Translations under genes and position numbers: made by a program
Notes under the pieces: generated by a model
Told to the model about the DNA's origin: nothing
Databases searched by the model: none
Seen by the model: only the letters and a program-made list of their open reading frames with translations
Assembly (NCBI GenBank): GCA_007128515.1
Contig: SKXI01000120.1
Location: 1 to 7,535, forward strand
Reading direction: 5' to 3'
DNA length: 7,535 nt
Source of the DNA: Halococcaceae archaeon
GTDB taxonomy: Archaea; Halobacteriota; Halobacteria; Halobacteriales; Halalkalicoccaceae
In this document: piece after piece, positions 3,482-7,535 of the stretch
How the letters are laid out: the number at the start of each line of letters is the position of its first letter
Numbering within the stretch: position 1 is the first letter of the stretch

Positions 3482-3649
3482 CCGTGATACCTGACTCGGA
3501 TGGGGGTCGGCGGGCGGCCGTACCGGGACCTGGCCGTCGGCCGCGCCCGTGCACGCATGGGCGAGCGGGATCCGTCGGCTCACTGCGGGCGAATACCCCC
3601 TCCGGCCTGACTGATCGGTCGCCACGCGGCCCGGGACACCGACGAACCC

Positions 3650-3664
3650 ACCTAACCAGTATGG
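3650..3664 (+). promoter_or_regulatory. Bat-type upstream activator sequence (UAS) candidate for hop
   Basis: ACCTAACCAGTATGG matches 10 of the 13 defined positions of the bop-promoter UAS consensus ACCcnactagTTnGG (from memory of saturation mutagenesis in Halobacterium). There the UAS lies 52-38 nt and the TATA box 30-25 nt before the transcription start. The same geometry here puts the TATA box at 3672-3677, where TTGATC is found, and the transcription start near 3702, a few bases before the hop ATG. Bat-type regulators are proposed to act through this element, and a Bat-like gene begins at 5707. Confidence 0.5.
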
Positions 3665-3708: not shown

Positions 3709-4581
3709 ATGACACCGACCGCTCTCACGGCATCGGCTGTACAGCACCTCCCGTTCCAGTTGACGGACGCGGAGCTGGTCAGCGAGGTCTTCGCGGACCC
3801 CGTCCTCGCGAGCTCGTTCGTCGCGAACATCGCGCTCGCGGGCGTGACGATCCTCTTCATCGCCTACCTGGGCCGGAACCTCACCGACCCGCGGACGAAG
3901 ATGATCGCCATCGCGACGATGATGATCTCGGTCGTCTCGATCTCGAGCTACACCGGGCTGACCTCCGGGCTCACGCTCTCGGTGATCGAGATGCCCGCGG
4001 GTCACGCCGCGGAGGGGAGCACGTACGCCGGTGAGGACGGCGTCCTGACGATGTGGGGACGCTACCTCACCTGGACGTTCTCAACGCCCTTCATCCTGCT
4101 CGTGCTCGGGCTGATCGCCGGCTCGAACTGGACGAAGATCATGACGACCATCGCGTTCACGATCGCGATGTGTGTGACGGGGCTCGCCGCCGCGCTCACC
4201 ACCTCCTCGCTCGCGATGCGGTGGTGGTGGTTCGTGCTGAGCAGCCTCTTCTTCCTCGTGATCGTCTACGTGCTGCTCGTCGAGTGGCCGAAGGACGCAG
4301 CGGCCGCCGGGACGAGCGACATCTTCGAGACGCTGAAGCTGCTGACGGTCGTCGGCTGGTTCGGCTACCCCGTGCTCTGGTTCCTCGGCGTCGAGGGGAT
4401 CGCGGTGCTCCAGGTCGGGCTGACCTCCTGGGGCTACAGCATCCTCGACATCATCACGAAGTACATCGTGACGGTGCTGATCATGCTCTACGTCGTGAAA
4501 GAGCCCGCCGAGATCACCGCCGGCAGCGCCTACGGCTCGACGAAGCCGAGCGCGGCCGCCGGCGCGCCCGCCGACGACTGA
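3709..4581 (+). CDS. hop: Halorhodopsin, light-driven chloride pump
   Basis: This is a 290-residue seven-helix retinal protein, close to the 291 residues of Natronomonas halorhodopsin and sharing its PADD C-terminus. It uses light to move chloride inward across the cytoplasmic membrane. Retinal attaches to Lys251 in helix G (LDIITKY), with counter-ion Asp247. Helix C carries the chloride site WGRYLTWTFSTP: Arg118, Thr121 (in place of the proton-pump Asp85) and Ser125. The BC-loop EMPAGH (94-99) and the LVEW, LKLLTVV and GVEG motifs are halorhodopsin-specific, excluding bacteriorhodopsin and sensory rhodopsins. Pocket aromatics Trp122, Trp217, Tyr220 and Trp224 are present. Oddities: the bacteriorhodopsin Asp115 equivalent is Thr151, the Asp96 equivalent is Val132 rather than the usual Ala, and the BC loop is about five residues shorter than in Natronomonas. 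The ATG at 3709 is preferred; an in-frame GTG at 3682 would add nine residues. A Bat-type UAS candidate lies upstream. Confidence 0.97.
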   Translation: MTPTALTASAVQHLPFQLTDAELVSEVFADPVLASSFVANIALAGVTILFIAYLGRNLTDPRTKMIAIATMMISVVSISSYTGLTSGLTLSVIEMPAGHAAEGSTYAGEDGVLTMWGRYLTWTFSTPFILLVLGLIAGSNWTKIMTTIAFTIAMCVTGLAAALTTSSLAMRWWWFVLSSLFFLVIVYVLLVEWPKDAAAAGTSDIFETLKLLTVVGWFGYPVLWFLGVEGIAVLQVGLTSWGYSILDIITKYIVTVLIMLYVVKEPAEITAGSAYGSTKPSAAAGAPADD

Positions 4582-4623: not shown

Positions 4624-5214
4624 TCAGCCGACCGGCTCGGCGAGCGCAGCGAGCGAGAACAGCGCGATCGCCGCGCCGGCGGCGACGAGCGAGGCCGTCG
4701 CCGGCGTGACCGGGACACCGACCGTGAGATACGGGTTCACGCCGGCGGCGACGAGCCGATCGACCGCGTCGGGCCCGAACAGGCCGACGGCCGCGACCGC
4801 GACCGTCACGAGGAGGCCGATCGCGCCGGTGACGAAGCCGAGACACGTGCAGGCGTCCTCGATCCCGACCAGCCGCCACGCCTCCGGTTCGGTGAGCGCC
4901 TCGCCGCGGGCGGCACGGGACGAGACCAGGAGGAGGCCAACACCCGCGGCCGAGACCAGGAGCGCGAACAGCAGGACCGAGAGCGCGAGGCCGAGCGGCG
5001 CGGACGTCGGATCGGTCCCGACGTAGCCCTCGGTGACCGGCGCCGGGAGCGAGGCCAGGATCGGAAAGAGGAGCGAGCCCGAGAGCAGGAGGTAGCCACA
5101 CCAGCGGACCTTCCGGGTGAGCGACCACCGCCCCGTCATGGCGTTCCGGTAGCGGATCCGCTCGTAGGTCGACCCGTGGAGGATGCGTTCGGCGTGTGGG
5201 TCGTCGCTCGGCAT
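4624..5214 (-). CDS. Hypothetical four-helix membrane protein
   Basis: I do not recognise this 196-residue protein. It begins with a polar, charged stretch (1-37, with RIRYRNAMTGRW) that probably stays in the cytoplasm, followed by four hydrophobic segments at about 38-57, 73-98, 122-147 and 165-192. A loop at 99-121 is charged and is followed by Cys122 and Cys124 at the mouth of helix 3, a possible metal or redox pair, though this is speculation. There is no catalytic motif. The ATG at 5214 is well supported: TTATAT lies 28-33 nt upstream, predicting transcription from about three bases before the start codon. The gene is convergent with hop (42 nt apart) and lies 45 nt downstream of another four-helix gene on the same strand, so it could be read from its own promoter and by read-through. 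Its position between a rhodopsin and a Bat-like regulator is the only functional clue. Confidence 0.8.
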   Translation of the reverse strand: MPSDDPHAERILHGSTYERIRYRNAMTGRWSLTRKVRWCGYLLLSGSLLFPILASLPAPVTEGYVGTDPTSAPLGLALSVLLFALLVSAAGVGLLLVSSRAARGEALTEPEAWRLVGIEDACTCLGFVTGAIGLLVTVAVAAVGLFGPDAVDRLVAAGVNPYLTVGVPVTPATASLVAAGAAIALFSLAALAEPVG

Positions 5215-5259: not shown

Positions 5260-5658
5260 TCACTCCGCCTCGACGAAGCGCTCCAGGTCGATGACGCCCT
5301 CTTCGGAGAGGACGTCCCTCCCCGAGAGCACGAGCACGCCGCCGATCGCGGAGCCGATCAGCAGTTCGGGGAAGCTCGCCACACCGACCCAGTAGTCGAT
5401 CCCCACCCCCAGGAGGACGGCCGCGCCGATCGCGAGCAGACCGAGACCGATCCACTGGAACCACTGGACGGTGAGTGGACCCAGCTCGGTCTGGGGGAGT
5501 ATGCCGCCGAGGACGAGACAGACCCCGGCGGCGCCGAGTCCGAACAGCTGAATCGCGAGCGAGGCGGAGACGACTGCCGAGTCACCGAGGAGCACGAGCG
5601 TCCCCTGACTCGCGAGGACGAGGAGGAAGCCGAGGTAGGCGAACGGGCGGCTGTGCAC
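5260..5658 (-). CDS. Hypothetical small four-helix membrane protein
   Basis: I do not recognise this protein, 132 residues from the GTG at 5658. Hydrophobic segments lie at about 7-25, 29-53, 66-88 and 97-112, followed by an acidic cytoplasmic-looking tail (113-132, LSGRDVLSEE then GVIDLERFVEAE). WFQW at 66-69 and DYW at 88-90 flank helix 3. There are no enzyme motifs or cysteine pairs. The frame is open further up to a TTG at 5685, which would add nine residues (start LPPYSLDTS); GTG is the more usual start and the family cannot be used to decide. The gene is divergent from the Bat-like regulator, with only 48 nt between the two chosen starts, so both promoters must share that gap or overlap coding sequence. 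A weak TTCTTG lies 25-30 nt before the GTG. It could be co-transcribed with the next gene downstream. Confidence 0.7.
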   Translation of the reverse strand: MHSRPFAYLGFLLVLASQGTLVLLGDSAVVSASLAIQLFGLGAAGVCLVLGGILPQTELGPLTVQWFQWIGLGLLAIGAAVLLGVGIDYWVGVASFPELLIGSAIGGVLVLSGRDVLSEEGVIDLERFVEAE

Positions 5659-5706
5659 GGACGTATCGAGCGAGTACGGAGGCAAGAACCTGTCGTCGAA
5701 GCGCTA

Positions 5707-7535
5707 ATGCGACTCCCACCCGTACGGTCGGCAGTGTCTTCCATCCGTGTGCTCGTCGTCGGGGTCGACAACGGGGGAGTGCTGGAGAGCCAAGGTCACG
5801 CGGTCCGCTTCGAACGGGACGCGGCGGCGGCGCTCGCACGGCTCGACGGGCGGCGGGTCGACTGTGTCGTGAGCGAGTACCGACTGCCCGACGACGACGG
5901 TCTCTCGCTGTTGCGCTCGGTCAGGGAGCGCTCGCCGGAGCTCCCGTTCGTCCTCTACACCGCACACGGGAGCGAGGTGGTCGCGAGCGAGGCGATCTCG
6001 GCGGGCGTCACCGACTACGTGCTCCGAGACGAGGACGGGGCGATCGACCGACTCGTCGATGCCGTCGGGTCGATCGCCGACTCGATCGAGGGTCGACCGG
6101 AGTCCGACGGGGCGCTACCGGAGCCGACGACGGAACAGATCGTCCGGGCGATCGACGAGGCGCCGATCGGTATCACGCTCACCGACCCGAACCGACCGGA
6201 CAACCCGATCGTCTACCTGAACGACGCCTACGAGCGTCTGACCGGCTACGACCCAGCGGACGTTCGCGGGCGGAACTGCCGGCTGCTCCAGGGACCGGAG
6301 TCCGATCCCGGCGAGGTGCGGAAGATGCGGGACGCGATCGACGCGGAGGAGCCGGTCACCGCGGAGCTGCTCAACTATCGCGAGGACGGCACGCCGTTCT
6401 GGAACCGGGTGGACATCTCGCCGATCTACGACGAGAGCGGCGAGCTCGTGAACTTCGTCGGCTTCCAGACCGATATCTCCGAGCGAAAGCGCGCCGAACG
6501 GGAGCTCGCACGCCGGACGGAGGCGCTCTACGAGGAGCGGCGGGCACTCGATCGGCTGCTCTCCCGGATCAACGGCCTGCTCGACGACGTCGTCCGGGCG
6601 CTCGTCGAGTCGTCCGACCGCGGCGAGGTCGAGCGCGCGGTCTGTGCGGAGATCGCCGACACCGACGGCTATCGCGCGGCCTGGATCGCCGGGACGCTCT
6701 CCGAGCGCGGCAGCCTGCGAATCAGGGAGAGCGCCGGGGAGGCGGCCGTGCTCGCCTCGGTCGAGGGACCCCAGCTCCGCGACGACGGCCCGATCCGGCG
6801 GGCGATCGAGAGCGCGAGCGTCCAGACCGTCGAGGCGGAAGACTGGGCGGTCTCCATCGAGGCGCCGGAGGACTCGATGGCCGCGATCGTTCCCATCTCC
6901 GACGGGACGACCGACTACGGTATCCTCTGTGCACACACGGACGGCGCGGGCCTCCTCGACGCGCGTGAACGGGCGGTGCTCGGCTCGATCGGCCGGATGA
7001 CCGCGAACGCGATCACCGCGGTCGAGACGCGACGGGCGCTCACCTCCGACCGGGTGACGGAGCTGGGCTTCCAGATAGCGGACGAGCGCGCACCGCTCGT
7101 CCGGCTCTCGGAGGCGATCGGACGGCCCATCCGCTGTTCGGGCGCGACGGTTCACCAGGGGGCCGCGCGGCTCTACCTGCTCGTCGAGGATCCGCCGTCG
7201 GACCTGGAGGGCCGGGTCTCCAGCCTCGACGTCGTCGACACCGTGACCGTCGCCGGCGACGGGGTGTTGCTCGTGACGCTCACCGACGCCGAGCCGTTCG
7301 AACGCCTCGCGGAGTGCGGCGCCTCGATACACGGGATCGAGGCCAGCGACGGGCGCGAGACCCTCCGGGTGACGGTCGCACCGGGTCGCGGGTCGCGGGC
7401 GGTCGCGAACGCGCTCGAGGAGCGATACTCGGGCGTCGAACTCGTCGTCCAGCGCGAGCGCGAGCGGGAGGGGCTTCCCACGACGGAGTTCGTCGCCGCC
7501 GTCCGGGAGACGCTCACCGATCGGCAGCTGGTGGC
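5707..7535 (+). CDS. Bat-like transcription regulator: receiver-LOV/PAS-GAF-Bat domain (3' end cut)
   Basis: The frame is open from the ATG at 5707 to the right edge (609 codons seen). Domains: receiver-like fold (about 13-115, IRVLVVG to VTDYVLRDED); LOV-type PAS (about 140-260) with GRNCRLLQG (Cys191), FWN and FQTDIS; a charged helical linker (259-290); GAF (about 295-440); and the Bat-associated domain (about 445-595). LTDRQLV at 603-609 is the usual opening of the HTH_10 helix-turn-helix, most of which is beyond the window. Relatives such as Halobacterium Bat activate bop, brp and crtB1. Here the LOV cysteine and flavin-contact residues suggest blue-light sensing. The receiver has Glu57 where the phosphorylated Asp belongs, so it is probably not phosphorylated. 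A GTG at 5734 (SSIRVLVVG follows) is a plausible alternative start that would leave more room for the divergent promoters. The gene is called Bat-like rather than bat because the output domain is not visible. Confidence 0.92.
   Translation, partial: MRLPPVRSAVSSIRVLVVGVDNGGVLESQGHAVRFERDAAAALARLDGRRVDCVVSEYRLPDDDGLSLLRSVRERSPELPFVLYTAHGSEVVASEAISAGVTDYVLRDEDGAIDRLVDAVGSIADSIEGRPESDGALPEPTTEQIVRAIDEAPIGITLTDPNRPDNPIVYLNDAYERLTGYDPADVRGRNCRLLQGPESDPGEVRKMRDAIDAEEPVTAELLNYREDGTPFWNRVDISPIYDESGELVNFVGFQTDISERKRAERELARRTEALYEERRALDRLLSRINGLLDDVVRALVESSDRGEVERAVCAEIADTDGYRAAWIAGTLSERGSLRIRESAGEAAVLASVEGPQLRDDGPIRRAIESASVQTVEAEDWAVSIEAPEDSMAAIVPISDGTTDYGILCAHTDGAGLLDARERAVLGSIGRMTANAITAVETRRALTSDRVTELGFQIADERAPLVRLSEAIGRPIRCSGATVHQGAARLYLLVEDPPSDLEGRVSSLDVVDTVTVAGDGVLLVTLTDAEPFERLAECGASIHGIEASDGRETLRVTVAPGRGSRAVANALEERYSGVELVVQREREREGLPTTEFVAAVRETLTDRQLV

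Follow-up and report, generated by a model that had tools for sequence, protein, structure and literature searches.

Can a Bat-type regulator of haloarchaea be a photoreceptor in its own right, and which genes would it control? Direct light sensing by Bat has been suggested, yet it 'has not been definitively established' (PMC4682037). The question is raised by a 7,535-nucleotide stretch of DNA, here called the window, which is contig C357 of the draft haloarchaeal genome G000 (2.47 Mb, 501 contigs, 61.6% complete). There, a halorhodopsin gene (hop) lies about 1.1 kb upstream of a gene (bat) for a Bat-type regulator with a canonical LOV domain. On the comparisons given below, this regulator is likely to switch halorhodopsin and retinal synthesis in response to blue light.

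3709..4581, + strand: halorhodopsin gene (hop), start ATG 3709; PDB 3a7k match at 4.2e-100, PF01036, Thr-Ser-Val motif
5707..7535, + strand: Bat-type regulator gene (bat), 609 codons present, 3' end lost at the contig end; open reading frame (ORF) with Pfam REC, PAS and BAT matches

The LOV domain and the regulator that carries it

6121..6486, + strand: LOV domain, residues 139–260 (profile and PDB searches, alignment, structure model)
6277..6279, + strand: Cys191 codon (TGC), predicted flavin-adduct cysteine (motif alignment)
6328..6330, + strand: Arg208 codon (CGG), predicted flavin-phosphate contact (alignment)

The ORF stays open across the LOV region, and ATG 5707 is the start that matches a near-identical 662-residue protein, P0002. 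The original prediction had read the PAS domain as a LOV photosensor with the flavin-adduct motif GRNCRLLQG and its Cys191. Numbering from ATG 5707 bears out the motif and puts the cysteine codon at 6277–6279, and alignment finds all seven residues that had been named (N166, C191, Q195, R208, N223, N233 and Q254) in place. The match to oat phototropin agrees with the gapless comparison that had been claimed: query 15–121 aligns with 2v0u_A (NPH1-1) chain 12–118, 107 residues each, with no net gap as judged from the alignment ends. Relative to the usual GXNCRFLQG, the sole departure of the motif is Leu for Phe, a variant found in 14 of the 88 Cys-bearing rows (121 proteins, query included).

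Searched against the PDB, the LOV domain matched 156 distinct sequences at E <= 0.001, the best at 1.9e-33. Among the 60 listed of these 156 matches, 59 are LOV proteins or constructs by molecule name or title; 6yx4 and 6yxc were counted as such only through a molecule name common to Chloroflexus LOV entries, and the lone remaining match, 9hkf_B, is named only as a dehalogenase–kinase fusion. The profile search proposed with the original prediction did not place the domain among non-flavin PAS domains, and both the sequence search and the structure model put its PAS fold nearest LOV structures. That the domain merely resembles LOV and binds no flavin is hardly credible: the listed matches are LOV, and the flavin-contact positions are canonical, four of them (N190, Q195, N223 and Q254) being invariant across 50 aligned sequences. 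Compared with the protein of a sister genome, identity is 93% over the LOV part and 82% over the full length. No FAD-type insertion was seen in the window LOV domain, so flavin mononucleotide (FMN) is more likely to be bound than flavin adenine dinucleotide (FAD). The sequence searches, the modelled structure and the comparison with the family thus support, as a prediction, a complete and canonical LOV domain of the adduct-forming group, with flavin binding and photochemistry to match, and the proposal that Bat here is a direct photoreceptor is upheld on the same terms.

5740..6090, + strand: receiver (REC) domain; PF00072, 54.7 bits; model strands and helices at residues 14–128
5875..5877, + strand: Glu57 codon (GAG), in the phospho-Asp column of the family alignment
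6478..6609, + strand: linker helix from LOV to GAF, residues 258–301 (full-length model and LOV model)
6616..7014, + strand: GAF-like domain; PF13185, 26 bits, under the Pfam cut-off of 28.6
7048..7473, + strand: BAT domain; PF15915, 85.4 bits

Around the LOV domain, Pfam finds the Bat-type REC-PAS-GAF-BAT arrangement, with the GAF score under the cut-off, and by this domain content the protein is a Bat-type regulator. The part encoded in the window lacks the helix-turn-helix (HTH) domain HTH_10 only because the contig ends first; HTH_10 was found in P0002 and in the Bat of the closest named relative locus, L009 (Halococcaceae archaeon CSSed162cmB_185; identical gene order, Bat identity 81–82%). 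In the full-length model (predicted local distance difference test, pLDDT, 86.4) a single helix, residues 258–301, joins LOV to GAF, and the placement of the domains is unsure because the predicted TM-score (pTM) is 0.49.

The receiver was compared across 107 family rows, which remain from 128 domain rows after 21 were dropped (duplicates L003 and L031–L034; non-LOV PAS rows of L004, L005, L184, L189 and L190; partial L128). The phospho-Asp column holds Glu in 58 of the 107 and Asp in 11. The window protein has Glu57 in place of the Asp of a phosphorylatable receiver, so phosphorylation is an unlikely input. The divergent Bat receiver was pointed out in 2018 and its role termed obscure (PMC5847659); the available part of that article holds no mention of Glu at this position.

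Candidate operator, halorhodopsin link and retinal genes

3649..3664, + strand: CACCTAACCAGTATGG, a Bat-type activator site by sequence match, 44 bases upstream of the hop start codon (matrix scans)
3488..3503, + strand: second-best Bat-type site, 14.51 bits, 36 bases upstream of GTG 3452 (- strand), the presumed permease start

The hop product has Thr at the D85 position and is closest to solved halorhodopsins (3a7k, 4.2e-100); by sequence it is a halorhodopsin, predicted to be a light-driven chloride pump. Before hop, an activator site is present as a sequence match. It shares with the upstream regions of other halorhodopsin genes linked to Cys-bearing Bats a near-palindrome around ACTAGT, which resembles ACCcnactagTTnG, the form that we take to be the bop activator site.

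The main matrix was built from bacteriorhodopsin loci only, with sites chosen without the genus of the window. With this matrix, 3649–3664 is the top match in the window at 14.97 bits, compared with a maximum of 7.0 in 290 coding-region controls; when the 150 bases upstream of hop were shuffled 3000 times, the score was reached twice. An earlier matrix, which also left the genus out but whose sites were chosen less independently, likewise ranked 3649–3664 first in the window, at 16.5 bits (2/3000 upstream shuffles, 0/150 whole-window shuffles), and the whole-window statistics are weaker with the main matrix than with this one. The third-best match lies at 1137–1152 (12.4 bits).

The presence of the site across loci was scored at a 1% control threshold. 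Loci had been picked by similarity to the window, in a search that scored at most three candidates per genome with the best matches listed, so their proportions are not population frequencies. Deduplication left 89 fetched halorhodopsin loci, of which 29 carry a LOV-Bat (15 Cys-type, 12 Pro-type, one Ala-type and one His-type, after the residue at the adduct position); this fraction is not an unbiased rate, since the remaining 60 were fetched for having no listed Bat match nearby. The site precedes the linked halorhodopsin gene in 15/15 Cys-type, 8/12 Pro-type, 1/1 Ala-type and 0/1 His-type loci. For linked genes of bacteriorhodopsins or sensory opsins the figure is 41 of 44 (23/24 Cys, 14/15 Pro, 4/5 His), among which the Cys and Pro loci supplied training sites for the matrix; the site was found before none of 12 unlinked other opsins. 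Hop–Bat distances and orientations vary between lineages, which suggests that the link has been kept and not merely inherited.

Several points weigh against a LOV-Bat switch acting on hop. The HTH lies outside the window sequence itself. Scanned with two mismatches allowed, the bop consensus gives no significant result for the window (29/200 shuffles match as often), and 6/200 shuffled whole windows hold a match as good as 14.97 bits. The hop site is not unique, given the 14.51 bits of the site before the permease gene. Only the 29 loci above hold a LOV-Bat, and 27 of the other 60 halorhodopsin genes still have the site, which may therefore serve other Bats. The last three observations would also fit a working blue-light photoreceptor whose main targets are other than hop, its neighbourhood being inherited and not functional. 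We regard this as decidedly improbable, since all four types of Bat adjoin halorhodopsin in varied gene orders and orientations and the site stands before every one of the 15 Cys-linked hop genes.

Targets in retinal synthesis are suggested by the sister genome. In L009 another Bat-type site overlaps the end of bat (10030–10047), and downstream of bat lie a lycopene cyclase gene (PF18916, 5.8e-7) and then a BCD gene (PF15461, 6.4e-81). BCD denotes the beta-carotene dioxygenase family, which produces retinal. In G000, BCD is found on contig C131, apparently at the contig end, followed as in L009 by a pyridoxamine-oxidase-like ORF and an ORF that is presumably TatC-like, with one additional small ORF in between. 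Lycopene cyclase was not found there. Because the surroundings of BCD match, the order of the retinal genes in G000 is likely to be the same as in L009.

On this evidence the preferred reading, a blue-light switch, would work as follows. FMN would sit in the LOV pocket, and blue light would drive formation of a Cys191–flavin adduct. The resulting change would be relayed through the 44-residue linker helix (258–301) to the GAF-BAT-HTH part, and the HTH would bind the site before hop at 3649–3664 (ACCTAACCAGTATGG) and, in the sister genome, also its counterpart upstream of crtY-brp. From analogy with Halobacterium Bat, we infer that the response would be activation.

G073, the third genome from this genus, gave no halorhodopsin match. 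At L128 (G073:C2:3716000-3733500), 7409–8592 hold a deletion scar in which permease remnants are fused into the second half of the bat LOV region. The junction falls near residue 204 of Bat; missing are hop, the receiver and the Cys-bearing LOV half, and a second gap takes out about residues 420–594. The site at the bat end is retained, as are, downstream, ORFs that look like lycopene cyclase and BCD. Pump and photosensor were lost together, and a single deletion suffices to explain this.

4624..5214, - strand: predicted membrane protein of 196 residues between hop and bat (relatives in other fetched hop loci)
5260..5685, - strand: predicted membrane protein of 141 residues, divergent from bat (among fetched loci, elsewhere only in the sister genome)

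The genes of the window run in the order partial amino-acid permease (-), permease–USP fusion (-), hop (+), the two small membrane-protein genes (-) and bat (+). Searches of Pfam and NCBIfam gave no match for either membrane protein. For the 196-residue protein, 27 related ORFs were found at E <= 1e-3 across the fetched loci, duplicates counted, some of them in loci without a nearby Bat. In L009 as well, a weaker Bat-type site (5846–5861) stands 36 bases upstream of the presumed permease–USP start; this spacing in both genomes suggests that the permease–USP gene may belong to the same regulon as hop. Two more Bat-like proteins of G000, L001 (C158) and L002 (C86), carry a LOV domain with the Cys motif, and a Bat-type site lies directly after the L002 gene on C86.

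History of the adduct cysteine

At the adduct position, the residue is Cys in 67 of the 107 rows, Pro in 34, His in five and Ala in one. The 208 position is occupied by Arg in 56 of the 67 Cys rows (one more has Lys), 2 of the 34 Pro rows, none of the five His rows and the single Ala row. A quick tree of 91 of the 107 rows, with the Cys and Arg columns removed, needs three changes between Cys and non-Cys; it does not settle how the three branches within the clade of the window are ordered, nor does it keep the outgroup together. A careful tree was calculated from 49 of the 91 rows, chosen by hand and excluding the long-branch L098, with the root fixed by the chosen outgroup, not inferred. Here the window and its sister form the first branch of a 24-row clade (bootstrap/Shimodaira–Hasegawa-like approximate likelihood ratio test, SH-aLRT, 100/100). 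The Pro/Ala branch, itself supported at 100/100, pairs with the second Cys branch, formed by Halovenus and its relatives, as sister groups (95/94).

Since Pro nests between Cys branches and Cys is found outside the clade too, the simplest reading is loss: Cys was probably lost, not gained, in the Cys-less Bats, along with a gain of Trp and a loss of Arg. Cys seems to have gone before Arg, as the earliest-branching Pro and Ala rows (L114 and L109) retain Arg at the 208 position. The five His rows are L095, L106, L111, L116 and L098. The first four form one clade beside Cys-type Bats, and this nesting points to a probable independent loss of Cys. In ten Cys rows (L080, L081, L083, L084, L091, L104, L118, L120, L122 and L129) the Arg is replaced by Ala or Ser; these possibly represent an intermediate LOV class.

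The clade of the window also includes BAT-LOV*, the Cys-less type examined in vitro in 2015, whose Y163, W172, P188, Y247 and N252 fit five of the eight Pro-type rows displayed (PMC4682037). BAT-LOV* has Pro, not Cys, and at the 175 position Trp, not Tyr. Within the clade, Trp occupies the W172 position in all 21 Pro rows and Tyr in all 10 Cys rows; the other 54 Cys rows have Phe in 51 and Tyr in 3. Most BAT-LOV* homologues are said in PMC4682037 to have Phe at 172, unlike the Pro rows here, and replacement of W172 increases photoreduction in BAT-LOV*.

These comparisons bear on whether the domain, with flavin bound, might sense mainly redox state or oxygen, the role put forward for Cys-less Bat, with the Cys not driving signalling. 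Two published findings speak against a light switch: the Cys-less BAT-LOV* acts as a redox/photoreduction domain, and its P188C replacement alone gave no adduct (PMC4682037). A redox role is favoured by the findings that chemical reduction alters the conformation of BAT-LOV* and that Cys-less LOV proteins can still signal via the neutral semiquinone (PMC4682037). In addition, both low oxygen and light induce Bat (PMC3184054). Nevertheless, the window Bat keeps Cys, Arg208 and Tyr175 and so bears none of the marks of the Cys-less type, whereas the Pro-type rows of its clade have Pro in 21/21, Trp at 175 in 21/21 and no Arg in 20/21. A mainly redox-sensing role is accordingly judged unlikely.

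The tree invites a broader proposal, in which adduct-forming light sensing is ancestral in opsin-linked Bats and kept by the window Bat. The Cys-less Bats would then be former photoreceptors turned redox sensors, having exchanged Cys for Pro, acquired a Trp that quenches and afterwards lost the phosphate Arg. For this proposal the balance is about even. If it is true, the locus shows how blue light originally controlled an ion-pump rhodopsin together with the supply of retinal.

Comparison with known systems

Archaeal LOV-HTH proteins have been known since 2014, when a survey counted 167 archaeal LOV proteins and found an HTH in about 30% of the halobacterial ones (PMC4844311); the window protein is an additional member. 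The RR-LOV-PAS/GAF-HTH proteins of Halobacteria in that survey resemble the Bat family of the window in having receiver, LOV, GAF and HTH in a single chain and a Bat-like arrangement. The available part of the article makes no mention of the halorhodopsin neighbour, the operator or the receiver Glu. Likewise, no description of a LOV-bearing Bat adjoining halorhodopsin was found among titles and abstracts of the open-licence literature. The halorhodopsin region of N. pharaonis was drawn in 2007 (PMC1885257).

Other LOV proteins share traits with the window Bat. ALovD-1 from Lake Diamante is a haloarchaeal Cys-type LOV domain as well and was shown to photocycle in high salt, but it is the second PAS of a histidine-kinase protein and no Bat; for a haloarchaeal LOV domain the photocycle has been demonstrated in up to 3 M salt (PMC12202551). 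EL222 has LOV and HTH in one chain, like the window Bat family, but is bacterial with other effector domains (PMC4844311). YtvA (structures 2pr5 and 4gcz) shows a similar C-terminal helix relay, again in a bacterial protein with different effector domains.

The Bat/bop regulon of Halobacterium salinarum has in common with the window Bat, as completed by P0002 and L009, the BAT and HTH_10 output and, by prediction here, opsin and retinal-synthesis targets and upstream activator sites (PMC3184054, PMC1447603, PMC1885257). In contrast, H. salinarum Bat has no reactive cysteine (PMC4844311) and drives bacteriorhodopsin, whereas the window Bat has the Cys and a halorhodopsin neighbour. The locus thus offers a natural Bat with an intact predicted photochemical centre beside its likely target gene and a candidate operator, near enough to the Cys-less Bats for residue-by-residue comparison.

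A 2015 article asked if the ancestors of LOV proteins had been redox sensors without the Cys (PMC4682037). The Bat-family tree points away from a Cys-less redox ancestor, and the light-to-redox conversion proposed here would run in the opposite direction to that redox-first history. Relative to the known systems, what is new is the hop neighbour with its Bat-type site, the retinal genes and site of the sister genome, the receiver Glu and the probable direction of Cys loss.
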